A DNA stretch of 64,000 nucleotides from Cudoniella acicularis. Its lineage: Eukaryota > Ascomycota > Leotiomycetes > Helotiales > Helotiaceae. Shown one piece after another: positions 16,528 to 44,593 of the stretch (positions are counted from its first letter, which is position 1; every line of letters begins with the position of its first letter). Where the stretch lies: NCBI GenBank assembly GCA_013054445.1, contig JAAMPI010000032.1, positions 26,016 to 90,015 on the forward strand, read 5' to 3'. The notes beneath the pieces are model-generated. The model was not told the DNA's origin. It was given only the letters and a program-made list of their open reading frames with translations, and ran no database searches. The position numbers and the translations under genes are program-made.

Positions 16528-18284
16528 ATGAAGATCTTAATACCAAGGCCTACTGTGGGGGTCAATTCCTCCTGCCTTGCGTCTCCGGCTCGGCGACCCA
16601 ATGTCTTCATCCAGGTATTGAAGGCTTCAGCCGGAAGGCGATATCGAAGTTTTGAAGATAAGGAAAGCCCATTACCATGGACACCACTCGTTCTCAAAAA
16701 ATCGTCCCCGATCAAGAAACTGTCTCCCTTTCCCTCAGAACCTGCTGGATTGAGGCAGCCACGGCAAGCTTACATTGCTTTTGGGAGCAATCTTGGGGAC
16801 CGCGTAGGATGGATAGAAAAAGCTCTCGCGGAAATGCCAAAACACGGCATCAACGTTGTAAGAGCAAGCAGCATGTGGGAGACAGATCCAATGTACTTTC
16901 AGAAACAAGAAAAGTTTTTGAATGGGGTGTGCGAGGTATATTTTCCCCATCCCTTTCAATTAACCCTTATTCGCTCATTCTCAAGTGAGGCTACATGAAA
17001 TCAACCAACAGCTGACAGGTGCTGCAGGTGACAACTCTGCACGAGCCTATCAAGCTCCTTGATACTCTTCAGAAAATTGAAGAGCTCTTAGGTCGAGAGA
17101 AGTTCATTGACAAAGGCCCTCGCAATATCGATCTCGACATCTTGCTTTATGGAGATGAAATTGTCAATCACGAAAGACTCAAGATCCCTCACCCGGGCAT
17201 TCCCGAACGAGAGTTTGTTCTTCGCCCACTCGCAGAGTATGTTCAATGCTCCTATAAATGTCCAGAACTGATTCGCCCTAGACTTGCACCCACGAAATCA
17301 ATACATCCTTCTTCGCCATGGAAAACTGTCCAAGACGCTCTCAATGCCCTTCCCGACTCCATCCCTCTAACTACTGTCACTGCCCTAGGACGCTCCGAGG
17401 AGCCGATTCGTGCTCTTCAATCGAATCGGAAGACGCTGGTGATGGCCATTCTGAATGTTACGCCTGACTCCTTTTCAGATGGAGGTGTTCATCTTACGAA
17501 GCAAAATTCACCGAATAGTCCGAGTCACCATCCGTCGTCGTTACCTCTGACGATAAAGTATGTATCAGAACGCGGTGCATCAATAATTGATGTTGGAGGT
17601 CAGTCGAGTGCTCCGGGCGCCATCAATGTGACCGACACCGAAGAAATATCTCGAGTTGTTCCCGCTATAGAATTGATTCGAGGTTCTGCTGAATACCAGG
17701 GAATAATCAGTATCGACACGTATCGCGCCTCTGTGGCAGAAGCCGCCGTGAAAGCTGGTGCAGATATTATTAACGATATTTCAGCTGGTCAGCTCGATCC
17801 GGATATGCTCCCAACGATGGCACATCTGGGGAAAACTGTCATTTTAATGCATATGCGTGGAACTCCAACGACAATGCAATCAATGATAGAGTATCCTGAA
17901 GGATTGATTCCTACCATAGCGAAGGACTTGCTGAAGCGTGTTGAAGAGGCCGAAGCAGCAGGCATCCGTCGTTGGCGGGTTATACTGGATCCAGGGATTG
18001 GTTTCGCGAAGACTGGCGATCATGCTCTTGAGATATTGCGCCGTTTGGACGAGTTGCGAGACTGGCCTGGCTTGAGAGGCTTGCCTTGGCTAATAGGATC
18101 TAGCAGAAAATCGTTTATTGGGAGAATTCTTGGAGTCCAGAAGGCGGATCAGAGGGTTTGGGGAACAGCTGCAACAGTGGCGGCAGCTATACAAGGAGGC
18201 GCTGATATTATAAGAGTACATGATGTTGGACAAATGGCTCAAGTGGCCAAAGTTTCTGACGCAATCTGGCGAGTTGAAGCTTAG
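16528..18284 (+). CDS. FOL1: Fused HPPK-dihydropteroate synthase (folate synthesis), aldolase module not recognised
   Basis: Two exons, 16528-16935 and 17028-18284 (intron GTATAT...TGCAG), about 554 aa from the first in-frame ATG. HPPK, which pyrophosphorylates hydroxymethyldihydropterin, begins at about residue 78: QAYIAFGSNLGDR, ETDPMYF, FLNGVCEVTT, then GPRNIDLDILLYGD and IPHPGIPER. Dihydropteroate synthase, the sulfonamide target, begins at about 275: AILNVTPDSFSDGG, IDVGGQSSAPGA, ISIDTYRASVAEAA, INDISAG, ILMHMRGTP, LDPGIGFAKT, IGSSRKSFIGR and IRVHDV. All catalytic blocks appear intact. Fungal FOL1 proteins normally also carry one or two dihydroneopterin aldolase domains at the N-terminus; only about 78 unrecognisable residues precede HPPK here. 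A longer 5' start at ATG 16378 (MQPPITDIPDRPAG...) is in the same frame but separated by a TGA at 16501. An N lies at 16423. Confidence 0.93.
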
Positions 18285-20753: not shown

Positions 20754-22023
20754 ATGAGTGGCTCAGTCAGTGCAGAGGATCTTCGCCATGCCGTTCCATA
20801 CCTGAGGAACAGGTTGGCAGGCTTAGAGAGAATATTATCGCTCTCCATCTCCGCCTCGAGTGAAGTCCAATCCATACCCATGAATGACGGAGATGGCACA
20901 TCAAAGTCTCCATCAGCAGATGATGATGGTGATGATATAATATCAATTATCCCATCGTCCGCAACTGCAGCCTCCACAGACTCGGACAGAGTCGCACAAG
21001 CAGAGTACCTATCTGAAATGCCGATCGGCACCGAGAGAGATCTAATCGAAACTGCTTTCGAGATATGCAAGAGAGTACAGTTCGATTCCTTTATGGAGAT
21101 TTGGAATGGAACCCAAATAGAACTTTCAGAAAAGGCATTGGACTGGTTCCGCCCAATGGCATTAGGTCGATGTCTGAAAGACGAGAAGATGGTCCACAAA
21201 TTCGAGGAGAATAGACGATGTGTAACGTGCTTGGCTCAATTGTGCAAAGTAAGTATCTACCATCAGCTACTTTGTTGCTCTCACCCATGATTTATAACGA
21301 GCATGTTTTCAACAGGCGTTATAACTTGGGTTGAAAATCTTTACCTAGTTATTTCAAAAAGTTTCAATATCTCACAGATTTTCAGTGTCCAGGCTAACAT
21401 CTCCTAATATAGATCTGCGAACATTGTCCGATCGCCGAACTCACTGTCACCAAACCACCAACGCCGACTGACCCAACTCAATGGACTAAAAGAGACACAT
21501 TGGCAGCATGTCGAGTTGCGTCGCCCTGCTCCAAGGAAGTTTGTACCCTCCCCTTCAAAAACCAACAGAGATTAGCTGCTAGGTGCAGGTGTATGGACTT
21601 CCTACTCGCACCAAACCACAACTGCGAGGAGGGACACGGACACCAATGTGAGGGATGCTTCAAAATAACTTGCGAGTTGCTATCTGTGGAAAGCACTCAA
21701 ATCGTCACATTGACACGGAGAGAAGGGAACAAAGAAGTCGTCGTTGTAAGTACAGTACCTTCTAACCATCTCCTTTTCACCGTGTCTGAGTAATCAGAAT
21801 CCTTTGCTAACACATATAGGCCTCCATATGCAACTGCGGCCTTCCCTCGGCTTGGAATACACCGAGGGCGTGCAAGATCTGCGGCAATATTTGCATGCCG
21901 TTCACGCTCAATGGACCGGAGATACGATGGAGAGTCAATGGTCCTAGGGAGGGACGGCCGGGAGCTGGATGGAATAATGGCGATTGTCCGTATTTCCTCC
22001 CTTTAGCGGAATACAGATATTGA
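20754..22023 (+). CDS. Cys-rich family protein A1 (unnamed putative metal-binding family)
   Basis: Intact, 343 aa, exons 20754-21248, 21413-21745 and 21820-22023; both introns are phase 0 with CTAAC branch sites. I cannot assign it to a named family. Order: an N-terminal helix (DLRHAVPYLRNRLAGLERIL), an acidic Ser/Asp linker, a helical region (ERDLIETAFEICKRV...ALDWF), then RRCVTCLAQLC|KIC-type cysteines spaced C-x2-C-x4-C-x2-C-x2-C that straddle intron 1. Exon 2 adds AACRVASPC, CRCMDFLLAPNHNC and GHQCEGC. Exon 3 has CNCG, CKICGNIC and the conserved ending WNNGDCPYFLP. Paired cysteines suggest zinc binding, which is an inference. There is no signal peptide or membrane segment, so an intracellular site is likely. 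It is the best intact type-A member. Confidence 0.85.
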
Positions 22024-22176
22024 GACGCTTCAGATCGGCAGCGGTCACGATAACATGGGCGGAAGTTGTTAATATGAGTTAGGATTTGAGTCAGTAGCGA
22101 ATTTTCCATAAAACTAGAACGATTATTAATTTATCACCTCTATCCTGTCAGCAAAAGAATCCGAGTCCGATTCTTC

Positions 22177-22896
22177 CTATTCTTCCTCCAAAATGGCTTT
22201 AATCCACCACTCCAGTTTCGTCCGCATATCTTCCCCTTTCTCCACATCACCGCTCTCGCATTCTTTTCTCACTTTCCATGCCGCACCCTCTATCACTTGG
22301 CGCCAACCTAACCGCCTTCCAAGTATGAAAGAAGCAGGTAGCGATACGACAACAAGGCCCCAGATTATAAACTGATAGGATTTCGGAAGAACATCCGTGC
22401 AGGAAACTCGAAGCAGTACATACGAGAATCCAAAATCGATCATCACTGGATAAAAGGCTCCTCTTCCAACAAAGTGACGTAAACCAGCCAGGTACTCCGC
22501 GAACACCTCCTTCTCATACTGCATCTTCTTCTCCAATTTTCTAAAATATAGTATACATCTTAAACAGAGATTATTTTCTTGAACCCACGATTCGATATTG
22601 GAATTCACGGTGGCGAGCCATGCTTCTCGGGAGTCGGGGTTCTGGAGGTCAGCGTATTTTTTGGTCCAGGTGGACTATATCCCGATATTAAGGGGCCAGG
22701 CCATGATGTTGAACAGAAACAGGACCGTGCTCCATTGATTCCAATCAAGCTCGATTGCTATATGTATTTTATAGAGGCAAAACGATAGAAGGCTGATTAG
22801 TAATAAATAACAGATTATACAGTCTTTGAAACTATAAATTTTTGATGCCGTGTCCGTGGGCGTGAGTTTGCAAGGAGTTTCTGGATGTGCGCCCAT
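22177..22896 (-). pseudogene. Membrane protein paralog M1 with one in-frame TAG
   Basis: A continuous 240-codon frame from ATG 22896 (MGAHPETPCK) to 22177, interrupted only by TAG at 22677-22675. Hydrophobic segments: IICYLLLISLLSFCLY, STVLFLFNIMAWPL, FGFSYVLLRV, and FIIWGLVVVSLPASFIL. A charged tail ends KGEDMRTKLEWWIKAILEEE. A 51-nt GTCCTG...ATATAG segment would remove the stop in frame, but the donor is weak and a hydrophobic segment would be lost. It is clearly related to the neighbour at 23178-24013 throughout its length. Function not recognised. It lies on the strand opposite to the surrounding Cys-rich genes. Confidence 0.6.
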
Positions 22897-23177
22897 GATT
22901 AGGTTTTGTGGGGTTGGTAAGGCGATAATCAGAGTTTGGGGGAGGTGTAGGAAGTAAGGAGGAAGTTTCAGTGAACTTTTTCTTTAGGTAAATAAGATTG
23001 GTAGTGCCTGATGTCATCCGGAACCTAGAAACGTATTTTTAGGACCGGGCCCAATTCGTACTAAAATTATAATCTAGGTCTGCCATGAAAGTGTGACAGT
23101 TCGAAAATTGTTAAGCCGTCTACTCGACCGAGTTTTGTTTAATTATGGCCGTTAGGTGATGGATTCTCCGCCTTCGA

Positions 23178-24013
23178 TCAACAGCGGATATTCCTCAAAA
23201 TCGGAGCAATTATCACCTCCACCCTCTCCTGAGTCAAAGCCTCCGAGTCCGATTCTTCTTCCAGAATAGCTTTAATCCACCACTCCAACCGCGCTCGCAT
23301 GTCTTCCCCTTTCTTCACATCGCCACCATTGCATTTCTCTCTTATTTTCTCCGTATTATTAGACATATTTGAGTACCAGATTCCATTCACTGAAATTATA
23401 AAAGAAGTGGGAAACGCCAGAAGGATAGTACCCCAAATTGTAACCAGCCAAAAAAATGGAAGAATTCCCGCATAGGCAACCCGAAGAAGCACATAGGAGA
23501 ATCCGAAAACAATTGCCGTCGCATAGAAGAAAGAAAAAGGTTTTGTATTCCCTGGCATGAACCTGTAAGGTACGCTGCAAACATCTCTTTTTCGTAGTGT
23601 ATACTCTCCTTTTCTAAACATTTGGATAGAAGCATCAAGCTGGACCCCAACCTCTTTGCTTTCACCCACGTCGAATAGTTGGTGTTTATGGTGTTGAGCC
23701 ATGCTTCTCTGGTGCCTGATTCCTCCAGATCAGAGCATTTGAAGTAGATGAATATTATAGTAGAAAACAGGCCGACTATAGCGAAGAACCCCACTAGGTC
23801 GAAGATTCAAATATACACACTTGATTATGAGTCATCAAGAGTGATTTCTGTGAGTGTCTTATAAAGATAGAATGCCAGAGCGGTAGTGGGTAATAACTGA
23901 TAGTAGATAAGAACTTGGTAATTTGGAATTTTGGATAATTTGTTCAATGGCTTGTGTGATAGGTGTTGGGATTGGCGCCCCTGGTTGCGTTGTGCGGGGT
24001 TGTGACAGCGCAA
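23178..24013 (-). pseudogene. Membrane protein paralog M2, frame-broken
   Basis: Three pieces together parallel M1: 24013-23825 (YYQLLPTTALAFYLYKTL, ends TAA), 23794 onward (GFFAIVGLFSTIIFIYFKCSDLEE, REAWLNTINTNYSTWVK, HYEKEMFAAYLTG), and then, one frame over, RFMPGNTKPFSFFYATAIVF down to 23178. Shared blocks with M1 are REAWL, YEKE.FA.YL.G, FGFSYVLLRV and KGEDMR.(K/R)LEWWIKAILEEE. The frame change falls where M1 has a few extra bases. Both 5' flanks keep a common segment ending GGACCGGGCC (23042 and 24158), so the duplication included upstream DNA. Probably a pseudogene. Confidence 0.6.
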
Positions 24014-25231
24014 CTCTGAATGAGAAAGTGGCCGAGATGTTGGGGAAAATATAGAAGAATTTTTAAATAGAAATTCGAAGACTGGATCATTTATGATCGT
24101 ATTAAATAATCTTGGTACTAACTGACATCATATAGAACCTGGAAATGTTGTTTTCTGGGACCGGGCCGCTGACCGACGATATCCACCAGTAGCCACTTTT
24201 TTCATTTTTGTGTTAATTGTCACCAGAGTTATTGTATGCGTAAGGAAGGTTATAATGCGGATGGATCATGTTGAGTTCGGGAACTTAATTGCAGTATTTA
24301 TAATTACAAACTATTTTCTGCTGCGGTTTCTCGACGAGGAAAGTTCAGTATCTACTTGAAGATGCTTCTACTTCTTGGGCTTTTCCACCTGAGCTCTAGT
24401 GCCCTACTAGTATTCTCACTATATCAGAAAAGTGGGTTTGTGTGTGGAAGATGTAGTGGGACCAAGGTAGCGTGGAGGAGGTGGAGCCTTGGGAAGGTGG
24501 CAATAGAGTATAAGCGACGCTACAGAGCACGCCCTCCCCCCCCTCTGTTCCTTCCCACATTAACAATCCTCGCTTGGGGCTCAGGCCAATCTTAAGCGCG
24601 CTACTCACTTTCAATAAGTTTTTGGGAAACTACCGTGTTATAGCGATGCCTCTGATGCGCGAATTGCTGAAAATTGTTGTTCTGTTAAGTACAAGTCCTT
24701 AATTTTTCACCACTAGCTAGAGTTAGCGCGGCAGGCCTCCAAATATTACACACTTTTATTTCTCTCATAAATAATGGAGTTTGCTATTCCACTTACCGCT
24801 GTTTTCAGAAGTCTTGCATGCCGAGAGCGCATTTTCTGGTTGATGGTCTATAGATATCAAAGCGCGTATCTGGATGGTGGACACATGAGATTCACTAAGG
24901 GTGGTAAGCGAGCAGCAAACTCCCCCGCCCAAGTCGTGACGGTTATTAAAAACCTCGTAGAAGCTGAAATTCACTCAGGGTCGGAGGAGGAATCGTTTGA
25001 CAGACCCACGATCCTCATTACTTAAACCCCCAGCAGTTCTTTTGACCTACTTTGCAACTCCAGTTGATCAGCAGCCTTCACATCCCCACAACATCCTTCA
25101 AGCTTCCCATCTCTGCGAGGTAAGGCGTCTTACTTTTCAGAGATCTATCAACTCCGTCGTTTGGCGCAAATTGTGATATCATCACAGAAAACCTACAGCC
25201 GACTCGTCCCTTTTCGCAAAAGACAATCATC
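24014..25231. other. Intergenic, 5' side of A2
   Basis: It contains the M2 upstream segment with GGGACCGGGCC and then about 1 kb without supported genes. A short frame at 24774-25025 (MEFAIPLTAVFRSLACRERI...) has no relatives that I can name and is not called. Confidence 0.45.
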
Positions 25232-26466
25232 ATGTCATCTTTACAGGAACGGCTTCAGCGCGCGGTTCCTTACATTACGAATACGTTGGCAAATGAAATC
25301 AGGTACTTGTTGGAGCTACCCCTCATTGATAAAGCACCAGACTTGGAACCAGATCTTGAACCCGATTTTGAAGACTCGGAATCTTCTACAAAATCTTCAA
25401 ATGATGACCTCAAGTCACACCCTTCGACGGAAACTGCGCTTTCAACAGCTTCCGATAAAGCGACAGAAGAAGAGTATCTTTCCCAGCTACCGGTATACAC
25501 AGAACGAGACTTGCTAGAGACTACTGCAAAACTTGCGCAACGAGTTTCGTGGGATAGGTTTCGATTTTTATGGAGAGTAACCGGACTTGACATATCTGAT
25601 CACGTAGCTATGTGGTTCTTTCACTTAACACTCAATGTGTGTCCCAAGAACAAGATGCAACATGCCTTCGAGGAGGATCGGCGATGTGTTACATGTCAAG
25701 TCCAGTTGTGCAAAGTAAGTAATTCCTTCCTGAAATCACATGCATATGAACTCTCATCGTTTCAACTCCCCTTTTAACGATTCTTACTAACGCTTTTCTC
25801 AACTAGGAATGCCAGGTTTGTCCCATTGTTATGTGGACTGCTCCGACAGCTGGGGGCCAAGAGAAAGTCTTACCAAACCCGTCTCGAAAAGACACACTGG
25901 CTGCATGCCGCATCACAGCTCCCTGCTTTCGAGATAGCTGTCGTTCAGTACTTGTAACCCCTATGAGATCCGGATTTAAATGCCAATGTCCCGAATTTCT
26001 CCTAGAGCCAAACCACTCCTGTGAAGACGGAAAGGGACATCAATGCCAGGATTGCTTCGACAAAACACTTGCAAAACTGACACGCAGAAACAGCAAAAAT
26101 GTCACCTTCAGGAGCGCGGAATATGGAGATGAAATCGCCACTGTAAGTAAACCTCACATCCGCTCTCCTCTAAAATGAGCTAATGAAAATAGGTGTATCT
26201 CTGACGACTGTGGCAGTCTTTCCGAGCCAAGACTCCCCAAAGTCTGCAAAATCTGCGGGAACATCTGCCAACCCTTCACTTTGAACGGTCCCAACGTAAG
26301 CATTCCAGTCAGCAGACCAGATGAGGGAAAGAAGGGTATTTGGAATAATGGAAACTGTCCTTACATCGTCGACCCCCCTCTATACACCGATAGGGTGATA
26401 ATCCCAAATAAACAAGGTCGTTCTTGGCTTTTTGGATTGTTTTCTCGGGGGCCTGGCAATCCCTGA
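25232..26466 (+). CDS. Cys-rich family protein A2, frame mismatch at exon 3
   Basis: Type-A paralog of the gene at 20754. Exons 25232-25714, 25807-26142 and about 26193-26466. It begins SLQERLQRAVPYITNTLANE, followed by an acidic linker and ERDLLETTAKLAQRV. The intron-1-straddling cysteines RRCVTCQVQLC|KECQVC have exactly the A1 spacing. Exon 2 has AACRITAPC, CQCPEFLLEPNHSC and GHQCQDC; exon 3 has VCKICGNICQPFTLNGP and WNNGNCPYIV plus a longer tail. Using the AG at 26191-26192, the frame needed for CISDDCG...CKICGNIC is off by one relative to exon 2, so the spliced message would hit TGA after three codons. A one-base deletion next to the acceptor explains this. It is nearly full length and may be a very recent loss or a sequence error. 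Confidence 0.75.
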
Positions 26467-28075
26467 ACTCATCAACGAGACTTGGTATTGCGGCTTTTCG
26501 AGACTTTTCTTTGAATTTGGGGTGGGATTTTGGGATAAGTGTGCCTGAATAGGGGAGGCCGGGGAGCCTAGGAGTTTGGCTTTGGATTCACCAGCATGTG
26601 TTATGGGATTTCTTTTACGGGGACGGTATGTGAGTGAGGGACTAAGTAGAGGTGATTCTTACTAAACGTAGGTCTTTTTCCGTGTATATAAGAGATGGTT
26701 CCGGTACATGTAGTACACGACTTTTAGAATTTTGCTAACTCAAATAAAACACTTCAACGACTTTTGTGCTAACACGAGATATTGTGAGAAGAACTGCAAT
26801 ACATAGTCGCATATCCCTTTATATCCATATATAAGTAATGGTTCTTCTAATTTCGTCGTTATTTAGCTGTTTTTAAGTGCTCTCTGCGATTTCGCGAGAG
26901 GCTGTTAAACAACCGAAGGAAATTTTCCTACAATACACTTCGAAGTTTTGAGAGCTTGCTGTTCCCTCTCTAAATTATACGTTCTATTTTCTCGTAACAT
27001 TCCCGTATTATATTCTGTACTGTCCCTGATACTATGTAGAAGATGTTAATACTAACTTTTATACAGAACGCTGTGAGGGGTGCACTGCATCCCCTCTCTA
27101 ACTGCCGCGAGAGCCCGTGCGCACGCAACCCCAACAGCAAAAGGTCCAGGGCGCTAGCATGGTTCTCTTAGGCGAACTCAGCGTGCTTCATGCTGGCGTA
27201 CAGGGCATACTCGCTAAATCTACAACACTCAAGGCGCTGAAGCACCCGCTGCACCCTGAATACGATTGCGCGATCCCCAAACTCTTGCAGGAAAGCAAGC
27301 CGCAAAACAAATATAAAGATTCCACGGCTCCAGAAAATATCCTCGTAGTTCTCATCCGTTGGCAAAATCCGGCTTATTCTCGGCTTTTTTGCGCATGCAA
27401 GCATCGTACGAAGCATTTCAGCGTGATATAACGGATCTTCATCAAATCTCGCGACCGCCTTAACACTTCAACATTTCGGCGACTTCTAATTACACAAACA
27501 CGATCGAATTTAGGATTAGAGATGTTATTAAGCCATCCCTATTTCACATCCATTTCGGAGAAGTTAGACCTTATAGCTAGTTTAATGTCTTGAAGTGTTC
27601 TGTTGCAGCATCGCAAGTTGTCGGCACAGGAAACTTAGCGATTCAGAGCCTAAGTCCTATATATTGAAGGACCCTCGCAGCTCTTGTCGCTTATTTTCTT
27701 ATTGAATTAGACGGAATTTCGATGCTTCATCTGAGGCTCTTGGCCTCCAGCGGCTACCCAGTATTGAATACCATGTTGCCAATGCATTTCAATAAGTATT
27801 CGATTAAACGTCTGAAATCTTCCCACCGCCGTCCTACCCAGGGATTTCACGCATATCTATTAAAATCTAGACTTTCAATACCGGATAAACTGCAGATCGC
27901 CTTTATATACCCACCAAGAATCTAAAACAATTCAGGATCGCACTCCATCTCCACTATCAAGAGAGGCTTTAACACGCAAGCAATGCTCCAAACGAACCTC
28001 ATCAGGTCGACAAGACTTTTGGTCTCACAGAGAAACCACGGCAAAGTCTGCTCTTATCTCTCATCAACTTTCAAA
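26467..28075. other. Intergenic between A2 and A3
   Basis: Mixed-composition DNA with AT-rich stretches. It holds AACACTTCAA at 26748 and 27462 and its inverse at 27590 (see repeat entry). The frame at 27117-27431 lacks motifs and is not called. Confidence 0.45.
27462..27599. repeat. Short inverted-repeat element, MITE-like
   Basis: AACACTTCAACATT at the left end faces the reverse complement of AACACTTCAAGACATT at the right end, about 138 bp apart. The ends match over about 15 positions with a 2-base gap. The same decamer recurs four more times in the Cys-rich gene region. It could be a small transposable remnant or a shared regulatory or terminator-side element. Confidence 0.35.
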
Positions 28076-29359
28076 ATGGCATTTGGGCCTGCGCAAATCC
28101 AGATACTCACCGAATACTTCAAGAACAGACTCTTCGTGGTCCGGAGGGACAGGGAACTCATCAAATATCCAAATCTCCAGGAAGAAGTTGATGACCAACC
28201 TATTGATGAAGGAAGTGAAACACCTACGAGATCCACAACTAGCTCGTGGAAACCAGATGTCTTCACACTTACGAAGTCTGTTTCTGCCGCCTCCACGGGG
28301 TCCGATGAGAGCAATACAGCTTACGACGTTCTCGAAGACCTGGACTATAGCGCTGATTACCTTCTCGATTCGATGGTAGAGCTTGCCTAAAACACGAATC
28401 TACTACATTTCATCAGTATCTGCGAGCCCTTCCAGAAGGAGTGAGCGAGTGAGCTGATCAAATCATTTTATGAGATAACACTCAACATCTGCCCAAACAC
28501 ACTTGAGCAGCACGAGTATGAGGAGAACAAAAAGTGTGCAACACGCATGGCACAGCTTTGCAGGGTGAGCAAGAGCTCCTTGTTTTCGAACTTGCTGTTT
28601 CTAAAGTCTCCGATAAGGTCCAACTATGTTTAGCTGAAACCCAAATACGAAGCAAGCCTATTGAAGTTAACAATCTCTGGTTAGCTAACTTCCAGTTGTT
28701 TAGGCGTGTTAACACTGTCAAATCTCGAAGTGCACAATCGTCCCTGAATTTGAAATCCACTCTCCACAATGGGTATGACACGAGTCTCTTGCTGCACGAC
28801 GCATTTTCGCCCAGTGCTACGATTGTCTCCCAGAAGTAGAATCTTTCGATCCAACCGCCCTGTACAAGTGCTCCGAATTCTTAATGAAGCCCACACACTC
28901 CTGCGCAGATGGAATTAGTCACCAATGCCGAAAGTGCTTCAACAAGCATCCAGGCTTCTGGGGATCGCCAACTCGACGGATTTCATTATGAGAAGTCCAA
29001 ACGGAGAGGCAGAGAAAGCCACTGTGAGTAGAATTACCCGACACTTTTAAATCACCGTTTCCCGACACACTATTTAGGCGCACACATGTCGATGCAAAAA
29101 TCCCTCAGAGCTGGGGCTCATCTGTGTATGCATGATCTGCGGTGGCAGGTGCAAGAGAGTCACCTTGGATATTCCAGCCGTTACACATAAGCTTTACGGG
29201 GAAAACGAGGGTCAGCCATGCACATGGAATAATGGCAACTGTTTTTACTTCCTAGAACAAATCCCAACTCGTGGAAGGAGTTTCTTTACCGACCTTGATC
29301 ACGAAGATAACGCTTCAGAGAGGCTGGCACGGGCAAGAAGAAACTCAAACAGTATCTGA
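28076..29359 (+). pseudogene. Cys-rich family pseudogene A3
   Basis: Type-A relic. The 5' frame from ATG 28076 (MAFGPAQIQILTEYFKNRL, acidic linker) ends at TAA 28388-28390, just where the family helix begins (DSMVELA*). The exon-1 end is still readable (FYEITLNICPNTLEQHEYEENKKCATRMAQLCR then a GTGAGC donor), but the second cysteine of the conserved C-x2-C is now Arg. Exon 2 keeps KCSEFLMKPTHSC and SHQCRKCF, with TGA before and after. Exon 3 (TCRCKNPSELGLICVCMICGG ... TWNNGNCFYFLEQ) is open to 29359. Several independent lesions make a pseudogene the clear reading; exon 3 is the best preserved part. Confidence 0.75.
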
Positions 29360-31679
29360 CTGTCTCAATGTGGTGATATTTGCATTGGTGGTTGTTTTGT
29401 CGAGTTTTACTTATTGGATATTTTGACTATGGTCTATATTGTATATTTTGATTGTTGAATAATGGGTTGGCTGGTTCTTAGATGTTAGGATACAGAAATA
29501 CTACTAGCTGGGGATACTGGGAATGGGAGATGCGACTATATTCTGTTCGCGGCTGTGGGCACATGCGGTCTGGAGTCCTTCTAAACATAGACCTGATGCT
29601 AGGTCTGGGAGAATGTAATTCAAACGTTTTCTCCAATTTCCAGTGGCTTTTAGGTCCTTTTTACGAAGTCATTCAAACACTTCAAAGTATCTAAATAGGT
29701 ACTCGGTCTTTCAAGAATGTAAACTACATACGTGGAGGAAGAGAGGAAAATATTTATAATTCCTCTTTGCAATAATAACTCAGAGTAGTAAAACGTCTAT
29801 TCTTCGAAGTCTTATGAGTCAACTCGTAGCGCAGGCCCAGAAACCGTCTAAGGAATAATATATTCTGTGTATTAGGTGTTGGGTGCAACTTTGTAAGGTT
29901 ACTGGATTATCATGCGTTGGTTCGAAAGACAGGAGAAAGGTCGAGTTCTGTGAAGGTGTCACGACAAGATGATGGATTTCAAATGCACGTGAGCATCTCT
30001 TCTCAAGACGACAAAGATTAGTTGTGGCTGAGAAATTATTATTTTTTTCTGAAGGACACACGTAACAGCGATGGCCAAACAAGCTTCAATTTTATTCTCA
30101 CATCACTTCTACTCAAGAATGACTTCAGTAATACTAGCCGGGCGTCTCAAATTTTACCCCGCAGTTTACCCCGCCATTTTCCCCTCGCCCACCGACTGCA
30201 CTAAAACTACGATCCTCAGAACATTGAAAAGTCCTTTTTGTCTCAAAGAAGTTCCCGAAATTCCTGATAATTATTTTTTTTCCCGCTGAAATTCTAGGTT
30301 GTCACTTCTTATATTTTGCTCCAAACTTTGTTCTAGTGGGGTTGTTTGGAAAAGGGGCTCGCTTCGGAGAGAACGTTGCTGACTAAGCTTGCCGACGAAT
30401 GAAGGAGTAACTTCTCAAATCATTCTGATAACAAGGATAACTTGTCTTCTTATCTCTGTAAGTCATCTAAATCACTAAAAAGTTGACCCAAAGTTCGATA
30501 AAATGATTGCTTTCGTACTACGACTTTCTGTGCGAGGCAAAACTTGACCCTGCGGGCCTAGGACCCGTACTCAAACCGAGTTCTAGAGCTAAAAGACGAA
30601 CATTTCTTTATGTGCGGGTTTAAAACTCGCGGTTTGATATTGTTTCCCCGAGACTCGCTACTAGTTGACTTATTATCCACCGAAAAAATTATGAAAGAAG
30701 TTTCGATCGATTTTGAAGATGCAAACGCGGATTTCATATTCAGCAGGCAGAACCTTTTCCAGCGCCTTCGTTTCTTAACTTCCATCTATACATGACCCAG
30801 TAACTGCATAGAAAGTTTGGATTGACGGTACTGTTTTTGCAAAGCAAGAAGCTTCCACAACAATAGAAAATATATCAATGCCTGATACATTACCGGTTGA
30901 GCTACCTCTCAGCCTTGCCCGGAAAGATATTGTCGCAATCAAACGTGAAAAAGAATTCTTGAAGCGGCGCTTAAGTAATTCTCGGAAATCAAGGTATTTG
31001 AGCTCTGAAAGCCCCTTAATCATGCCTAGTGAGGGTACAAGCTACCCGCTACTCTGGCTGAGAAAAGCCCCCGGGCGGGCTTCGAGTAGCCTAAAAGCTG
31101 GGGTTTTAAGCTTTCTAAACTGAACACCCGCTAACGTAGGCGAGGCTATTCCTAAGTGGACTAAGATTTCTATAGACTTAAATAGACCTTATTCGGTTGG
31201 AAAATTGCTTGACGGACGTTAGTAAGGTTAGTGCGTTTATCTGAGCAACAAATGACCACACTGCTGGCCAAGAATTGAGTCAAAAAACGGGTTGATCCGC
31301 ATTACTTTATTCATTCTTTTTTTTTCAAACCCAGCTGTGTGTGTTCAAAGGCGGTAAACACTCGAGGTTAATGTGCAAGAACAAAAGCCGATTCAATTGC
31401 CCCCAACATTGATTGCTGGAGCCTTTTATTTCGAAACCCTTCAAACGCGTTCATATATTTAACATTGACTCTGAGATGGCCTCCGAACCGTTTCTCCTTG
31501 AATTCAACTTTTCTATTCGTACCACGAGCTCTTTTTAACTGCCTTTTCCACCTCCAATGCATTGTTTCCGCAGTCACGTACAACAAAGCAGTCAGCTCGG
31601 ATCTCATTTCTCCGCCAAGATATCAAATCTTTGAACCCTGCAATACCAATCATAGCAACCAGAAATCGTGACATCCGTT
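29360..31679. other. Intergenic between type-A and type-B blocks
   Basis: About 2.3 kb at the transition from type A to type B genes. AACACTTCAA occurs at 29676-29685. The short open frames (for example 30610-30795, 30878-31123) show no family motif. It is moderately AT-rich, with a T-run at about 31316-31327. Confidence 0.45.
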
Positions 31680-32659
31680 ATGACTTCCGACGCACTTATT
31701 ATCATGAACAGGATTTAGCAGGCAGTCGATGGACTTGAAATCATTAACGACCGCCTCGACGAATGCGTGAGGAATCCACCAAAAGCAACTTGCGTTGAAG
31801 TGGAAGATTTGGATTCGGATTCGGATTCCGATCGATCCTCTGTCTGCAGCAGAAAGTCCTCATCGCCTTGTTCATCAGCACCAGATGTAAATTTTACTGG
31901 ACCTCCGCAACTCCTTTTCTCTCCATCTGGGCTTGGAGATTCCGGTGAATGGGTTCCATTGCCACAAGCCTGTGTTATCATGGGGGCATTTTTCACGGTC
32001 GGCGAAAAGTGGACTTGGAAGCGTACAATAGAAATCCTGGAACATTATCGCCTCAACCACCGTCTCCCACAAGAGTATCGAAAGCAACTCTTTTATATCG
32101 CAAAATGCGACTGTGGCCCAGACTACGAAAGTTATGGACGGTGCATCGGATGTACCCGCCAAGTCTGCGAGGTATGCGGTCCTGCTCGCTTTCATTTGTA
32201 GATTTTGACTAACATGCTGAAAAGAGATGTGCTAGCACTTACACAATCGAGATTTTCCGGAACAACTCGGACTTTCAGAAAGCGGGAAAGAAGCAGCTTA
32301 CTGATACTTTGTTGAGCCGGCGTGTTGTGGGTGCATGTCTTACGGAGCATTGTCCCTCGCTTAAGTTGAAAATGAAGCATAACGAAGTCTGTTCTTGCCA
32401 TCAATGGCCGAATCTTCCAGGCGAGAGCAAAAAGCTTGAGATGAGCTACTTTTTCCCAACGCGTATCTAGAAAACTTCTCTCCGGCGGATACCGCTAAAC
32501 AATGTGGATTTCCGGGCTTTTTTTAATCCGGGAATAGCCTTTGATGATGAGGAAAATTTGGACCTCCAGCTTCTCCGCCCTTACGAACACGTGACAACCA
32601 ATGAGGCCGATACATACTGTCGGTTTTGTCTTAAGTCTTGCGGGCTACGGGACGTGTGA
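31680..32659 (+). pseudogene. Cys-rich family pseudogene B1
   Basis: Type-B relic, exon 1 31680-32171, exon 2 from 32225. ATG 31680 (MTSDALIIMNRI) is followed by TAG at 31716. The same frame then continues through an acidic DSDSDSD linker, the helix WTWKRTIEILEHY, and CDCGPDYESYGRCIGCTRQVCE|RC with the intron in the family position. Exon 2 keeps VVGACLTEHC and VCSC, then meets TAG at 32468. Beyond it the same frame still shows LRPYEHV, TYCRFCLKSC and a terminal TGA at 32657, matching the third Cys module of B2. The exon-3 boundary seen in B2 is not evident here. Two nonsense codons and lost cysteines indicate a pseudogene, although a start downstream of the first stop is possible. Confidence 0.7.
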
Positions 32660-33358
32660 GAATTATGGAAACAAAAATAGGCTTGCAAAAGTTTTTCAAA
32701 ACAACTTGAAAGCCTTACTAACTTGAGTAGTAGTCTTCTGACATCAGAAAATGCTGATAGGGCTCTTCGATATTTCATGGCCTCTTTCACATTCAACAAG
32801 GTGGATGTTAGGTCATGCTATGCGTGCGCCGTTGATATGTTATATTTTGAAGGGGAGATAATGGAAGAGCAAAGGTATGCATAGGGAAATATTCACTCAA
32901 GGAGAGGTCTCATGTGAGAAGTGGTACATGGTATAGAAGGAATACTCGTGCAAGGAGAACTATTCACAGAAGGGAAAGCATTGATACTATATGAAATAAA
33001 ACTTTATGTTTTCTTAAAAACTGGCACAAAGTTGCATTCTTTCTCTCTTCGAATCCTAGGTTGAATGTGACTATTAGATTAAAGGGGGTATACTTGTAAT
33101 CACAAACCTGCAATCTTTAACCGAAGTGCTTCCGTTAATTCCTTTATCTCTTAGTTCCTGATAATAAAGTGTCTCCTTGCCTAAGGCGTTAGTAGATTTT
33201 CGAGTTGACAAGTTTTCGCGTCTCTACGCGTCAACTCGAAGGCCACTCTCTGAAACATTTCCACCGCAGCGCCACAAAACAGAGATTGTTTTCTTTTCGC
33301 TCCGACTTCACTTGAAATTCATTTTTTACAGTGCAAAACACAACCTAAATAAATTACT
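32660..33358. other. Intergenic between B1 and B2
   Basis: About 700 bp without a supported gene; presumed 3' flank of B1 and promoter of B2. Confidence 0.5.
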
Positions 33359-34463
33359 ATGGCAGAAACTTCTCCCCTAGCAGGGACCATCCTTCGCCAG
33401 TACATTCGAGAAACCCTATACAAACTACGAGAGATCGCTTCAACATATGACAATTGTCAAAGAATAGAAGAGGAAGGGCTATCTTCAGCTACTATCACAC
33501 ACAACGAGGACGCTACCCAAAGTGATTTTAGCTCAGAGAGCTCAGCTGAAACAACATCGACAAGCAGCTCCCACTCCTCCTTTACAGCTCCTGACCTTGA
33601 CGTCTATGATCCCCAAGTACACCCGCTAATAAACCCTTCTCCGCTACGCCCCCTACTGGTCATTGAAGGCCATGAACTTACCCAGTTGGAAATAACCCTG
33701 GGAACATTGTCTCAGGTAGCGGCGGAATGGACGTGGAGACGGACGAAAGAGGTCCTCGATTCTATGGGCCTAAGAGTTCAACTACCACCACAAGCTCTAG
33801 AACGCCTACGTATTATTTCGGCGTGTGATTGTGGACCAAACTTCGAAAGCCAAGGTCGTTGTGTTGGTTGCATCCGCCAGATCTGCACCGTAAGTAAAAT
33901 TACCCCAATCGGCTTCCGGAGGCAGTTGAAAACTCGAATGCGGTTCTTTTCAGCCGATATCCCCCCTTTACTCCCAAGATACACAAGCTAGATTGTGCGC
34001 CGTTCTATGACTAACTATCATCATAGAACTGTTGTTCGGCCGCGGTATCGCTCAAGCGTGACTGCCCATTGACCGAATCAATTGTGGGAAAACGGATTGT
34101 CGGAGAATGCAAGGCTCTTTACTGCCCTTGCGATTATATCGAACCCGACTTTGATCAATTCTGCGAATGCCCGGAAATTCTTGCTGGCTCTGCTGTCATG
34201 GACGATAACACCAGATATTTCTGTCGCGACTGCGCAGAGAAAGATATATCCGAGGCAATCCCGGCTAACAAAAGAGAGATTGAGAACGACGGAAATATGG
34301 TGACAGTGAGTATCCCGGAATCGCCTCGAGGTCAGAATTGAGCTGACTTCTATAGAAATATTTGTGCCCATACGAGACACCAGTTGCAGATACCAACTGG
34401 CTCTACTGCAGAGTTTGCTTCAAAGCCTGCATTGTATATGAAGGAGCCGAGAGGGGAACATAA
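33359..34463 (+). CDS. Cys-rich family protein B2 (unnamed putative metal-binding family)
   Basis: Intact, 305 aa, exons 33359-33889, 34027-34305 and 34356-34463, with two phase-0 GT/AG introns in the same places as type A. Order: N-terminal helix (ILRQYIRETLYKLREIAS), Ser/Asp-rich linker, helical region (EITLGTLSQVAAEWTWRRTKEVL...PPQALERLRII), CDCGPNFESQGRC, then VGCIRQIC|TNC straddling intron 1. Exon 2 has GECKALYC, FCECPEIL and YFCRDC; exon 3 has YLCPYETP and YCRVCFKAC. The layout of three cysteine modules matches type A although overall sequence has diverged strongly. No signal peptide. Zinc binding is inferred from paired cysteines. It is the only intact type-B member. Confidence 0.83.
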
Positions 34464-35707
34464 ATTGATTATACCTTGGCCACGGCCTCTGATATTCATG
34501 AAGTTTTGTTTGCGGTGTCTGCGTGGAGGCTGGTGGGGCTGTTGGAGCTTTTGGTGGATTGGGTCTGGAGTACATGTTTGATTATTATGATAAGATTACG
34601 CAGATACGGTATGCAATCAAGTGATAGCTTTTTCTGTGCGGAAAAATGAGCAGGGATAATAAATTAGATTTCTTTCGGTTTTTTAAAATGCAAGTACATT
34701 GGCCAGTCTGCGAATCTGCGGCCTAGCGGAAGTTGGAATGGTCCGATATTGTCCGAAAAGGAATAACCACGAATCTTCTGTGTGAGGGGGCTCTCGCACC
34801 TGGGTGAGTGTTTTGAAATTTAGCATAGAAAAAACGCTGGAATCAGAGTTGTAGGGGCAAAGAAGGTTGATTTGTGACGGACGGCTGAAGCCAGCTATTT
34901 AAGTTCCATAAACGAGATACGCTAACCTAAAATAGCTCGCCGAATCAGGCAGCTTCTCAAGCATCGTTGTTGGTCACGTTGCGGCGCCATCGCTAAAGAT
35001 CCAAAACCATCAGGGATCAACCAAATAACTTCAAATAATCAAATCAGCAGCGAATTGAAGTAATATGCTATTAATATCCCTCAGTTTACTAACAGGCGTG
35101 ATACCAGATTTCGCTTTCTTATGGAGGTCAATCCAAAAATATAATGTCGAGATCTTGAAGTGTTTCACGCGACTTGAGGAGGGTTGCGAGACGTTGGCAC
35201 TTCCATAAAATGTAGATTGAAAGTTTCCACGAGGCTTATTAGGAGGCTGCAAAATATTTGCTATCTTAATTGCTAAAATTAAAGAGCTCAGAAATACCAT
35301 TTTGGTGGATGGTATTATTATGACGTTATAATGAACAACGCTGCACTAGTCCTGATTTAGTTCGTTATCATCAACAATTTTCTTTTTATCTTCCTACACA
35401 GCTAGATTCGAAAAAGCGTCTGTTCTTAATTTGTAAAAGAAAAGACTGTCCTGTAAATTTCTAATCCTTTGTCCTCACAAGGCTAGTAAGCAAGGCAACT
35501 AATTAAAGAGACTTCCCCGAGCAAACTAAAACCTTCGAACCGAGGCTAGATCCAAAATTCACCCCGAGTCTCCAACTTTCTCCAGGGCTCTCTCAGCTTC
35601 TTCAACTGTGAGAATTTTCACGTAAGAGCAACCTCAAGGTCAGAACCACAATATCGCAGCATCAATGAGCCTATGAGGATTGACGCTCTTTAGGAATCGC
35701 AGTCAAT
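34464..35707. other. Intergenic between B2 and B3
   Basis: About 1.2 kb with no supported gene. The open frame at 34384-34581 is a shadow across B2 exon 3. A minus-strand frame at 35031-35300 has no recognisable motif. Confidence 0.5.
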
Positions 35708-36940
35708 ATGGTGACTACTGCCTGTCCAACAGGCCAGCAGATCGAGGAGCAAATCCAGCAGACAATCGAATATCTGGAATCAATCAACAGTCGCTTCCAA
35801 TCCCTCAAATGAAGCAAAGAAGAAGAGGAGAAAAACAACATCTTCGACGACTCCAATACCGATATCAGAGATACCTCTTCAGTGTCCTCAAGCTGTACTA
35901 GCAATTCCGATACTTCTACCTCAACCACAGTAGACAACGTGCCGGACCTACTAGCCCAGGCCTCGCTCGTCGGAAACACATATTATAGCCACCATGGAAT
36001 TGGGGATCCAGACTGGGTCGAAGGGCAAGAAGAGAAGATCTCGAAGGAATTGCAATTCACCATGGCAGTGTTCTTCGTCGCTGCGGAAAACTGGACCAGT
36101 TCCCAGCTCACACATATAATCGACTACCTCTTCTTCCGTTCTCGCCTGCCAGATGAGTTCGTTACTACTCTCTTCCATATTACATGTTGCGACTGCTCCG
36201 CCGGTGAGGCTTCCGGTGTTAGTTTGGCAGACCGCTGCGTCGGTTGCGTCAAGCAAGCCTGCGAGGTGAGTTCGTCCCGCCTTTCTGTGCTCATAAATTT
36301 GTGTTGTGGAGTAGTGCTGTCATAACTGAAATATTGTCTGCTGTCAAGATTCCGTTCTGTTATTATTCAGTTTGGATTGTTGCAGAAAGAACGAGAAGTG
36401 AAGATGACAACATATTGATTTCTATTTCATCTCTCCAATCACTCTATCAAATTTTTGCCATCTTATACTGGAACTCACTAACAATCCAACAGAAATGGGC
36501 CGATTCATATGAACTCGTTTCGTCCAGCTCCACCCAGCGCCCAGATAAAAACAAGCAAATGAGGACAACGCTTAGGAACCGCCGGCTAGTCGGACGGTGT
36601 AACGAGACTTTCTGCCCAGCAAACGCTCTCTATGTTGATCTAGAGGGCTACTGTGAATGTGATAAGCATTTGGCAAGTACTTCTGGGAGTACGGTATTCG
36701 TGGTGGGGAGCATTTGCAATGATTGTACGACTTTGTCTTCTTCTGATATTCTTCCGCCTAATACTCGCTTTGCTTTTGTTGATGGAGTTCACACTAGGGT
36801 AAGAGCTTCGTTCTTGTTTGATAATTTGGGAATGGGCTAATAGGAGTCAGGAATACCTTTGCGCTTTTAGTCACGATGCCTGCACCGATGTACCCCTCTT
36901 TTGTCGAATCTGTCTCAAGAAAGCTCGCTGGGAATCTTAA
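35708..36940 (+). pseudogene. Cys-rich family gene B3 with one early stop
   Basis: Type-B paralog with exons 35708-36265, 36493-36798 and 36851-36940; introns are phase 0 (227 and 52 nt). The frame starts MVTTACPTGQQIEEQIQQTI and meets TGA at 35810-35812 (codon 35), then remains open to the end: Ser/Thr linker, helix, CCDCSAGEASGV, RCVGCVKQACE|KW (the fourth cysteine of the cluster is Trp here), GRCNETFC, YCECDKHL, ICNDC, YLCAF and FCRICLKKA. Everything except the single TGA looks functional. A downstream start or a sequencing error cannot be excluded, so the pseudogene label is provisional. Confidence 0.65.
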
Positions 36941-39900
36941 ATAATCGGCTTCAGGAGTAATGGGAATATCACGTGGTTTAAGTTGGGATTTGGCGATTTC
37001 TCTTGCATACTTGGTGTTCATGACTGGGCGATGACTATTGGGGGGGACCTTGGGTATTGGCGCACATGGAGTTTCATTGCGAACCTTTGGGAGATGATGT
37101 TCTCGCTGTGTACAAACCACCATTTCCATCTTCGTAGTAATAGTGGATTGCCAAATTGTAGATCACGAATACTGCATATGGGTGTGTTGAGTCTACGCTT
37201 TCCGGTGGACTAAATTTACAAATGCCTCATGAGCACTTGGGATTTATAAGACTACCGCAGAACATTATATTAATATCGTTAGCGAGGAAAAGCTAGCTCT
37301 TTGCTTGTAGAAGTTCGTACATTTTGTGTTTTCTATTAATGCCGAAATTCGAAAGATTAGCTTCTTCGAACCCATTTGAGTTACTTCAAAACCTGACCTG
37401 AAACACTTCAAAATGAAACAACATTGTAGAGTAGCAGACAGTTAATAAATCTAATTATTTAGTGATTTTGATGGGAAATATGCCGCTTCAGGGTTTCTTT
37501 CTGAATTCAAATAACAGCTTCACTCTGGAGCCCCGAGTTTCCAAGTCTGAGGCATGAATTTTCAGCCCCTCTCTTACAAATACACTAAACACTTCAAAAT
37601 TACTAAACGTCGTCTAATAACCTAAAATGGTAACCGAAGACTTAATATAAGATAAACAGACTATTTGAAAGGTCTCTATAACTGTTAAAGATTTATCGCA
37701 GTTGCAGGGCATTTTTTATTTGAGGTATTAGGGATGAATCTACAGTAAGATTACTACGAAGGGATACCCTACTCGTTAGGAACTGCTCCCTGAAATACAG
37801 GGACCTTCACACTATAATTTAGCGATTAACCGCTAAATTTCAGCAGCATGATCTCTATTCTTACACACATTAAATTAACTTTGAAAATGATCCCATTTTA
37901 ATTGTCCAAACCTTATCATAGACGCAACCAACTATTACCAGACATTTTCTCAGCTTTTAAATGTAGAAACCCCAGAGGTTCTTATCAAGCAGTGTAAGAC
38001 TGGTACTCGTTACAGCGACTTGTACGCTAAAGCTCAGCGACTTCGCACTGAACTTCAGGGGCATGTGCGCGCAACTCTAGTGGACATCCCCTGAACTTCT
38101 GTAGGTTGCATGTTTATCACTGTGCACTGCACATCAGATGAAATATTTAAATCAAAGTTTAAAATTCAAAGAAAACTAAATATAACCGTAACGACGGTTT
38201 TGAATGATAATTTAACCAAATTTAATTCCAATGGAAAGCTGGTAAGACTTACACCCTCCCGTCCATAATATTTCATTTTAGCAAGCTTCTGCCAAGCAAT
38301 GTATAAGGACCCTCTCCCAGAAAACCAACGAGCTATCGGTGAAGAGCGGCCTTCCTACACGAATGGGTATAGTGTCGTAGGATGAATAGCTTGCTTCTAA
38401 CAAACTAGAACCCAACTACCGTAACTCGCCTCATTTCTTTAAACATGTCCCGACGTTCCGAAGTGTGCCATCACCAGTACCGCCCCAAAGGCCTACAAGC
38501 CTCCTATTGCAAAACCTAATCCCAAGGCTCGATCTTAACTTCCACTTCACTAGCGAAGACCTTCCCCATGCTGCCATCTAACTTATTGTCCAACCCGGAT
38601 CTATATTGCAGAGTGTCTCCAAACCCGCGCTCTCGACTCCGCAGCCGCCATAAATAGACTTCCGAAGTATTTCAGCGCCTTCCCTTCTTAGCCAAGTCCC
38701 CTCCCTTCCAAGTTCCTTCCTTCCTTCCTTTCCCTACCCGGCAATCAATTATGTCCCCCTTTGTACCCGCCCGATCTGCCGTACACAAATTCGTAGCCAA
38801 CAAGCTGGTATAGAGAAGGAAGGAAGGTCTTGTATTCGAGAGACTCGGCATTTATGTTGTTCTTCGGAAGTCGTAAACCACAAGTTCAAAGGAGTTTCTG
38901 CCGATTGAATACACTCAAATTAGCTTTTATCGGCATTAAAGCCAGGAGCTTGGAGAGGCTGAATGATTGATTAGGAAAGGAGGCACGAAGAGTGAGAAGG
39001 AAGCTCACCTCTCCGTCATTCATCGATCTACGCATCCACTATTCCCCAACAGCCAGCCAACGCCAACCTTCGCCATTCTCCTTCAACCCCCATAACCCAC
39101 CGAAGGACAGCCAAAAAGCCCACTCACCGTATTCCCAGCAAAACGCCTGGAGTCCAGAACGAATCTTTCAACCCGACAACCACCCAGCAAGCTGCCAGTC
39201 CCTCCTCTTCAGCCCAGCCCCTTAACAAAGCCTCTCTCCTGTCCAAACCTGGAATCAATCGCTCGCAAGCTATTTGCAGAAAAAGGCCAGCCTACCTACC
39301 TACCTACCCTCCTCGCCAAGCCTCCTCGCCGAGCTGAAAACCCCCCTCCCTCTCAATTTAGATCTTGTACCGCGAGAGGAAAGCCCCAGCCTCGATCGAA
39401 GGCAGGCACCCGCTCGCCGACTGCAGCATCGCCAGCCTCTCCAGCGATCGCCATGCAGGTGAGAAATAGGGGTAACCCCCATATACACCATTGAATCTGC
39501 GATAAGTTACAGAATCCGCAAGGAGGATTTAGAACTGAAGTGAATGCTGCTGTTGTTTATTTGCAGTTTGCTTCCGAATCAGCCAACCGACCATACACGA
39601 AAACCCCTGTCTCGTTAGCTCGAGCTCCTTGGGGTTACACAACGCTATGCACGGCTACGGTTGCGGCGTAATTTGTTTATCGTGCCTATTATTATGATGA
39701 ATATTTATTGGATAACAATTATGCGGGAATTGCTCAAGGAGTTGAGATAAAAAGTGCTTTGATAAATGATTGATGAAAAAGGGGAGGAATTTGAATTTAC
39801 GTACGGAATTAAGACAAGATTTGTATGACATAAGGCTTACTTATTCCCATGCAGCGAGCATGTTGCCAGCTTAATGCGCAATTAGCAGAGCAGAGGAACT

Positions 39901-42264: not shown

Positions 42265-44593
42265 CTAGCTGATATTTAGCTCTTGTTGAATTAGAGCTGT
42301 CGGGAAATATCCCTTCGATTCGGTTGTTCCTTCCCAGCGCCCACAGTGTCTTCCTAAACCTTCTTGGGTGTTTGTCAAGCTTGGCAGAACGTAACCGCTT
42401 GAACCATACTCTGATTTAATCTTGGACGAGTTGAATTCCGCCATTGATGGGAGTTGGAAGCGTGCCTCGTGCCCTTCGTAGATCGCACCAGGATAATAAA
42501 GATAGCAGGGCGACTCTTCGATGCTCTTTGCGTCTTCAGCAGATATGATCGGCTCCAAAGGAATTTGGAGTGGGGCAATGTTGCCTCTGTAGTGATGTGA
42601 CCGGTTGTCATAAGAGCTCCCATATCCCGATCCTGGGATCATGGAAGAAGTGCCTGACATGCCAATGTCACCAGGTGTTCGCGAAGTCCCCGCGCTTGGA
42701 GTATAGGAACCGGCACCACCGGCGCCTCCAGAGCCAGGTCCAGTGCTTGCGTTACTGCCGCGGCGCTCATTTTGGTAGTGTCCAGGAGAACGCCCACGCA
42801 CAACCATTGGAGCTGACATTCGGAGGGCAATCTTGATGTACCGATCAGGATGTTGAGAACCCACATCGGCAAAGAGCTCGACGAGCAGGTGGTAGTATTG
42901 CTGCGCGGCTCGTCGTTTTCCGTTGTTTGCGGTCGCATTTTTGAACTGGATCCGCTCAAAGGTAGCCTCGACAGCCGGTTGGTTGGGATTTTGACCAAAT
43001 CCTGTTTCGTACAGTCCTCGAGATGAGCCACCAAGGGCACCGTCACCGTACATTCCATGGGACGCTGGAGGTCGTGGGGCCAAAGCAATTCTCTGCGGCT
43101 TTTCTTGTGGTCCCTTATCTCGTTTAGGGGTATGTTGAACGAGCTCAATAGATTTTCCGTCACGGCCATCAACAACTGCCGCTATTGACATGGCAAAACC
43201 ATAGACCTGAGGACCAAGTCGGCCCCCACTTTCGACCAAATGGACTGTTCCAGTCGGAACAGTTGGTTGAATTGTGTATGAACAATTCAGGGAGAAGTAG
43301 TTTCTCCGATAGCAGGTCCAATCGTTGTCTGCCATGAAAAACCCTTTGTCGATCCTTCCAAAAATTTCAGGTCTCAGATTCTGCCCATCTGAGTTCTGCA
43401 GTTGGTAAATCACATCTGTTGCACCTAATGGAGGGCATGATGCGCCACCGAGAGGATTCTCCATGTTCGTTGGGCTGGTGAAGCCACTGGCTGATGATGG
43501 TGATAATGGCACGCCCCTCACTAACCCAGAGAGTGAAGGAGATCTCGAGAGGAGATCGGAAGTCCGCCGCAACTGTGGAGTTGCACCTGTGTATAAATCT
43601 CGAGTTGTAATTGGGGACCCTGGGTGAGGCAGGGCCGGTGAACGAGTTGGTGGAGCCAGCCCAGGGGTTGCGTTACTGCGTGGATATGTCATTATTTCTG
43701 ACCACTGAGTAGGAAGTGGATCATGCCACAGATAGAAGATGATTGACTTACAGTGAGCCCAAGCGTGGTTTAATATCGGGCATAGAGAAGAGCGATGAGC
43801 TCGGCGAAAAGTAAGAGCTGCCCCCACTTGAGTACGTGGAGTTGCTCAAGCTAGGCTGGTAGATATTGGGATAATGCGAGAAGGCTAACGTCGATGACGA
43901 GGAGGAGCTCTGTACTGCAGGTTCAATTGAATATACAGGGCTGTGCGAAGTACCGGAATCAGTGAATCTGACATATCATCAGCCACAACACTACATGACT
44001 ACATGACTGCAAGACAGCATTTAAAGTTGAACGGGAGACGCCAGAATGGCGGCCACAATGGACCCTCGTGGTAATGATGTCCAGTTGGACTGCATGCGTA
44101 GGACAGCCAACTCAACGGTTCGTGGCACAGGAGCGGGGACTACTCGCGTGATCCAAGGTGTTGACGGGAGTAGATTGTCCACCCGCTGGGAGGCTTAAGC
44201 CGTGCAACGCCGACTAGCATCTGCAAAGAGGGTAAATTCGTGGCATTCCGTGCACTCTCCGATAGCTTAGGCGGCGAGAATTTCGCGATTAGATGCAGGA
44301 GTGTGTTGAGAGCGCAAGAAATCCAAAAAAGCACAGAGGTGGGCGCATGTGCCTAAATGCAGGCGGCTGGGGCATCACGAGAACGCAGACCAATGAAGGA
44401 TGGAGACTCACCGAACATCATCTGTTGTAGGCAATGTCATGTATCGCAGCCCCATGTCAGAGGGTAGAGAGGGCGGGTGTGCGTATTCCTGTCTGGACGA
44501 GCTGTCAGGCTCTGCTTCCGACCCGATTATACAGGAAGAAGAATGGCCAGAATATGCGGCTAGGTCTTGGGTATTACCAGCTTGCGAGCACAT
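42265..44593 (-). CDS. NDT80/PhoG-family transcription factor (VIB-1/XprG-like)
   Basis: Three exons: from ATG 44593 (MCSQAGNTQDLAAYS) to 44412, 43967-43752 and 43675-42265; introns 43968-44411 (444 nt) and 43676-43751; about 602 aa. Splicing joins TTDDVR to FTDSGTSHSPVYSIEPA and MPDIKPRLGSL to NATPGLAPPTRSP. The DNA-binding domain of the NDT80/PhoG type (PF05224) covers roughly residues 230-420: LRPEIFGRIDKGFFMADNDW, CYRRNYFSLNCSY, VYGFAMSIAAVVDG, ERIQFKNATANNGKRRAAQQ and YYHLLVELFADVG. Flanks are Ser/Pro/Gly-rich; the end is GYFPTALIQQELNIS. Relatives VIB-1 (Neurospora) and XprG (Aspergillus) regulate protease secretion, nutrient stress and incompatibility genes. The frame is open upstream to an ATG at 44728, so the start is uncertain. 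Confidence 0.88.

Follow-up and report, generated by a model that had tools for sequence, protein, structure and literature searches.

The fungus Cudoniella acicularis (Leotiomycetes, Helotiales) carries a tandem cluster of six related loci, all on the plus strand and built on a common cysteine (Cys) framework, at positions 20754-36940 of the window analyzed here (the whole stretch of 64,000 nucleotides, taken from a draft assembly of 53.2 Mb in 1836 contigs). The original prediction saw in it six genes of a Cys-rich family. The six related same-strand loci are indeed there, but only two of them, A1 and B2, are intact, while the other four have disabling features. The cluster, which encodes a family of probable zinc-binding proteins, thus looks like an old, partly decaying one rather than a set of six working genes. 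The explanation we favor, which we consider probable by a small measure, is that the loci belong to a single undescribed helotialean family, arranged as an old tandem cluster and shaped by duplication and decay, and that its products would be intracellular adaptors with three putative zinc-binding Cys clusters. The six loci, which fall into types A and B, are as follows.

20754..22023, plus strand: A1, intact, 343 residues; exons 20754-21248, 21413-21745 and 21820-22023
25232..26466, plus strand: A2; exons 25232-25714 and 25807-26142, third exon in the conserved frame from 26194 (the AG of the canonical acceptor ends at 26192)
28076..29359, plus strand: A3, pseudogene of type A; in-frame stops, frame mismatch in exon 2, first Cys module damaged
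31680..32660, plus strand: B1, degraded copy of type B; TAG at codon 13, disrupted exon 2, remnant resembling exon 3 at about 32570-32660 and missing the first Cys
33359..34463, plus strand: B2, intact, 305 residues; exons 33359-33889, 34027-34305 and 34356-34463
35708..36940, plus strand: B3; exons 35708-36265, 36493-36798 and 36851-36940, open apart from an in-frame TGA at codon 35

Types A and B are homologous and share a Cys framework

Within each type, kinship is detected by BLASTP in a database of four sequences: A1 and A2 are 40% identical (E value 2e-82), and B2 and B3 are 28% identical over 211 residues (E 1e-24). Between types, the same search gives only weak matches, the best being that of A2 with B2 (E 6e-5). 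When a profile of A1-A3 was compared with a profile of B1-B3, with stops treated as gaps and the broken copies included, the score was 54.4 with a probability of 96.75, which exceeds every shuffled control. Full column shuffles of the B profile reached at most 9.2 (58 of 60 gave a score), and shuffles that kept the Cys columns in place reached at most 21.4 (60 of 60). Since the real score lies above even the Cys-keeping shuffles, the kinship consists of more than shared Cys residues. This shows that types A and B are homologous, as originally predicted.

As for the Cys framework, each of the motifs named in the three predicted modules is found in five of the six loci. RC-x2-C-x4-C is present in all but A3, as are the exon-2 motifs C-x4-C (replaced in A3 by C-x2-C) and CxC; the exon-2 CxxC is missing from B1, and the exon-3 CxxCxxxC lacks its last Cys in B3. 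The first motif had been described as crossing intron 1. It is confined to exon 1 and stops one residue short of the intron, which it abuts. The family can be recognized by a shared intron-1 position together with RC-x2-C-x4-C, C-x4-C, CxC, CxxC and the exon-3 CxxC, each of which occurs in at least five of the six loci. The Cys clusters are the most conserved parts of the proteins, and in a core alignment of A1, A2, B2 and B3 (leaving aside A3 and B1) 12 of the 17 invariant columns are Cys. A1, A2 and A3 all retain the A-type ending W-N-N-G-x-C. Of 18 exons, 9 contain the arrangement CxC-x(8,20)-CxxC and 15 the looser C-x(8,20)-CxxC. CxC and CxxC pairs such as these occur in metal sites.

The proteins consist of an N-terminal segment, a linker rich in Ser, Asp and Glu, a block of ~50 residues, and three Cys clusters located at the end of exon 1, in exon 2 and in exon 3. 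On visual inspection, the N-terminal segment and the block preceding the Cys clusters both resemble helices. By a crude hydropathy measure, there is no strongly hydrophobic segment, the highest 19-residue Kyte-Doolittle mean being 0.95-1.36 across the six loci. The same crude measure found no signal-peptide-like N terminus (12-residue means near the N terminus of at most 1.33). Fungi secrete small Cys-rich proteins that, like the A/B family, are tandemly encoded and poorly conserved. However, the A/B family differs from these in lacking a start that resembles a signal peptide, in the size of its intact members (305 and 343 residues) and in the pairing of its Cys residues as CxC and CxxC.

Two loci are intact and four have disabling features

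We modeled 11 introns in all, placing the splice sites by eye so as to fit the reading frame and the related copies. They look like typical fungal introns: each runs from GT to AG, and all but intron 2 of A3 (10 of 11) contain a branch-like sequence of the CTAAC, CTAAT or CTGAC type that begins 13-20 nucleotides upstream of the intron end. The position of intron 1 is identical in the alignment for all six loci, whereas a comparable intron 2 could be modeled in five, B1 being the exception. The prediction of phase-0 introns at matching positions stands in part: it holds for intron 1 in all six loci and for both introns of A1, B2 and B3, but not for intron 2 of A2 or A3.

Only A1 and B2, with three exons each, have frames that are open from end to end. 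A2 and B3 have one defect each. In A2, all three exons are open, but intron 2 has a single good GT-AG placement, and with it exon 3 is shifted by one base, so that a plain reading stops a few codons into exon 3. In B3, a single in-frame TGA in exon 1 interrupts a sequence that is otherwise open. The remaining two loci are degraded, A3 by five in-frame stops (two in exon 1 and three in exon 2) on top of its frame mismatch, and B1 by its early TAG and broken exon 2. Shorter proteins that retain the block preceding the Cys clusters might start from in-frame ATG codons lying beyond the stops in B1 and B3.

Among the six loci, only A1 has a matching entry in the protein searches; B2, although intact, has none. 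The A1 entry, G7Y89_g896 (P0001, 250 residues), agrees with our model up to residue 209 of 343, but it omits residues 210-276 (exon 2), and its exon 3 follows a frame that is not kept by the paralogs.

Old duplications or a fast clock

Pairs of the same type have amino acid identities of 0.27-0.42, with proportions of synonymous differences (pS) of 0.72-0.79 and of nonsynonymous differences (pN) of 0.41-0.55. Synonymous sites are saturated, which points either to old duplications or to a fast clock. With such values, a local expansion in the recent sense is not supported. Nor is the suggestion of diversifying selection, since pN is below pS in all six within-type pairs with no sign of the reverse, although in paralogs this saturated single sites may have been so selected.

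Repeat-induced point mutation was considered as the source of the stops and rejected, since the six loci show no clear signature of it (dinucleotide ratio TpA/ApT of 0.58-0.80, vs 0.78 for the whole window). Two intergenic regions, 29400-31600 and 37000-38700, have TpA/ApT ratios of 0.99 and 1.02 and a lower GC content (0.41); these ratios near 1 are possibly a trace of repeat-induced mutation outside genes.

Searches for relatives and known domains

In the genome itself, queries with A1, B2, A2 (exons 1-2) and B3 (after its stop) gave matches on this contig alone, save for two elsewhere at E=3.9 and E=0.077. None of these four queries crossed between types, the A-type ones detecting no B locus and the B-type ones no A locus, so that any additional divergent type encoded elsewhere would have escaped detection. 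In the protein database, A1 found one match among 1857 candidates (its own entry), B2 none among 1662, and a four-sequence profile one among 3389 (the same entry). This search depends on shared five-residue words and covers annotated proteins alone. A1 and A2 share 13 such words, A2 and A3 two, B1 and B2 one, B2 and B3 one, and the remaining 11 of 15 pairs none, so that relatives as close as A1 is to A2 were likely to be found and those as distant as A is from B to be missed. Because of these properties, and because an entry was found for just one of the six loci, restriction of the family to a lineage is unproven. A search of viral contigs gave 31 pattern matches and no confirmed relative. 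In the available parts of the literature on Cudoniella acicularis and on tandem, orphan or Cys-rich fungal genes (PMC10569646 among it), no description of the family was found.

The original failure to match the family to a named zinc fold is supported. Pfam showed no match at or above cut-off for the seven sequences scanned (A1, B2, A2 exons 1-2, A2 exon 3, the exon-1 and exon-2 pieces of B3, and the exon-1 piece of B1, A3 being left aside) or for the four core members, and RING, B-box, PHD and MYND were not among the matches listed up to E 10, bearing in mind that HMMER filters remove most matches above ~0.1. NCBIfam (searched with A1 and B2) and PADLOC (with the four core members) gave no matches, and the best sequence matches in the PDB were at chance level (E 1.3 for the core profile and 1.4 for B2). 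The likeness that comes closest is to zinc_ribbon_6 (PF14599), whose profile weakly matches the Cys cluster in exon 1 of B3 (E 0.013, 15.8 bits). However, this is short of the cut-off of 27, only one of the four core members matches (best E 0.0013), and no other part is shared. FYVE_2 (PF02318) shows a weak overlap with A2 at residues 142-165, in the first Cys cluster, but at chance level (E 0.91, 10.2 bits vs a cut-off of 27.2).

Competing explanations

In the explanation we favor, the cluster would evolve by duplication and decay, with A1 and B2 fully intact and A2 and B3 each bearing one disabling feature. The proteins would remain intracellular, each C(xC)-x(8-20)-CxxC cluster would hold zinc, and the Cys modules would bind a protein or nucleic acid partner, while the acidic linker would stay flexible. 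That copies have been lost suggests a dispensable or redundant function. Several points weigh against this explanation. Metal binding, fold and expression are all predicted from sequence. The Cys arrangement is not always improbable by chance, since within-exon residue shuffles produce the strict form with a probability of 0.000-0.058 per exon and the loose form with one of 0.010-0.460. Internal triplication of a single Cys module was tried and rejected, as profile comparison of the modules in A1, A2, B2 and B3 does not clearly beat shuffles: for module pairs 1-2, 1-3 and 2-3, the real score was reached by 21, 9 and 2 of 40 full shuffles and by 35, 18 and 2 of 40 Cys-keeping shuffles. These figures do not support an origin of the three modules in a single ancestral repeat. 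The defects of A2 and B3 may be assembly errors instead of decay, given that the assembly is a draft in so many contigs. Finally, the alignments behind pN and pS were guided by protein sequences of 27-42% identity, a procedure that favors low pN, and pN is below pS also in pairs that include the broken A3 and B1, so that the measure does not separate living from dead copies. Constraint on the family in the past is therefore supported, but present constraint on A1 and B2 is not proven.

That measure also bears on the bleakest alternative, in which all six copies are non-functional, with A1 and B2 open by chance or lost only recently. It fits the disabling features in four of the six copies and a public entry for A1 alone, and that with a different end. 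However, frames that stay open for 343 and 305 residues through two introns, with splice signals in place and the Cys residues conserved, would be improbable after long neutral decay; A3, the third type A copy, has five stops. We regard this alternative as the least likely of those considered. Nearly as unlikely, in our view, is a fast-evolving family engaged in an arms race, for example in defense against mobile elements or in non-self recognition, whose rapid change would explain the missing relatives. Tandem birth and death, the strong divergence between A and B and the failure to find relatives would all fit, as would a HET-domain gene ~9 kb away. Yet HET genes are numerous in such fungi, so that this proximity says little; no excess of amino acid change is seen; the limited reach of the search accounts in part for the missing relatives; and no PADLOC model matched, although that library covers anti-phage systems only.

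A more serious alternative, though still one we doubt, is that the cluster is a divergent branch of a described zinc-finger or zinc-ribbon superfamily, beyond the reach of sequence profiles, in which case its function would follow that of the superfamily. The weak PF14599 match points this way, and CxC...CxxC spacing is zinc-ribbon-like. Against this, a single member matches and none is shown at cut-off, A1 having no listed Pfam match and B2 one at E 0.54; the PDB matches do not rise above chance (E at least 1.3); and Cys patterns fit many families by chance. The putative zinc modules may be either a new fold or a diverged form of zinc ribbon, and the zinc_ribbon_6 match is the only lead. We give slightly less credence again to the strictest form of our own proposal, namely an undescribed intracellular zinc-binding family with a fold unlike known zinc domains, confined to one Helotiales lineage and persisting through birth and death within one tandem array.

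Genomic neighborhood

A mobile-element origin of the cluster was rejected, since the only repeats of at least 25 nucleotides among the copies are exon stretches of 30-70 nucleotides in A1-A3, with no inverted pairs. The region 26470-28070, between A2 and A3, is single copy. In the gap between A3 and B1, 29648-29862 is a dispersed repeat found in at least 11 other places in the genome (67-83% identity). Between A1 and A2, on the minus strand, lie two paralogous open reading frame regions, 22177-22674 and 23253-23740, which are 50% and 45% identical in two stretches and have no Pfam match; a further partial relative (42%) is located at C1232:21087-21257 in the same assembly. A hydrophobic segment in 22177-22674 (19-residue mean of 1.92) suggests that both may encode membrane proteins. 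Scans of the window for tRNA genes and Rfam families found nothing. Other genes in the window include the following.

6425-8719, minus strand: DUF7025-AAA ATPase gene, upstream of the cluster
9726-11822, minus strand: HET-domain gene, upstream of the cluster
17016-18284, plus strand: folate enzyme (HPPK and pterin-binding domains)
42265-43845, minus strand: NDT80/PhoG-like factor
61201-61779, plus strand: cytochrome P450

Significance

Together, these findings show that the A/B cluster is a real family of which we found no description. Such clusters easily escape annotation, as is evidenced by a protein-search entry for one of six loci, itself with altered exons 2 and 3. If unannotated orthologs exist in related fungi, the cluster would show how "orphan" status arises from missed gene models. 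If, instead, the modules are truly a new zinc fold, it would offer a clean case for how a multi-exon protein family becomes taxonomically restricted.
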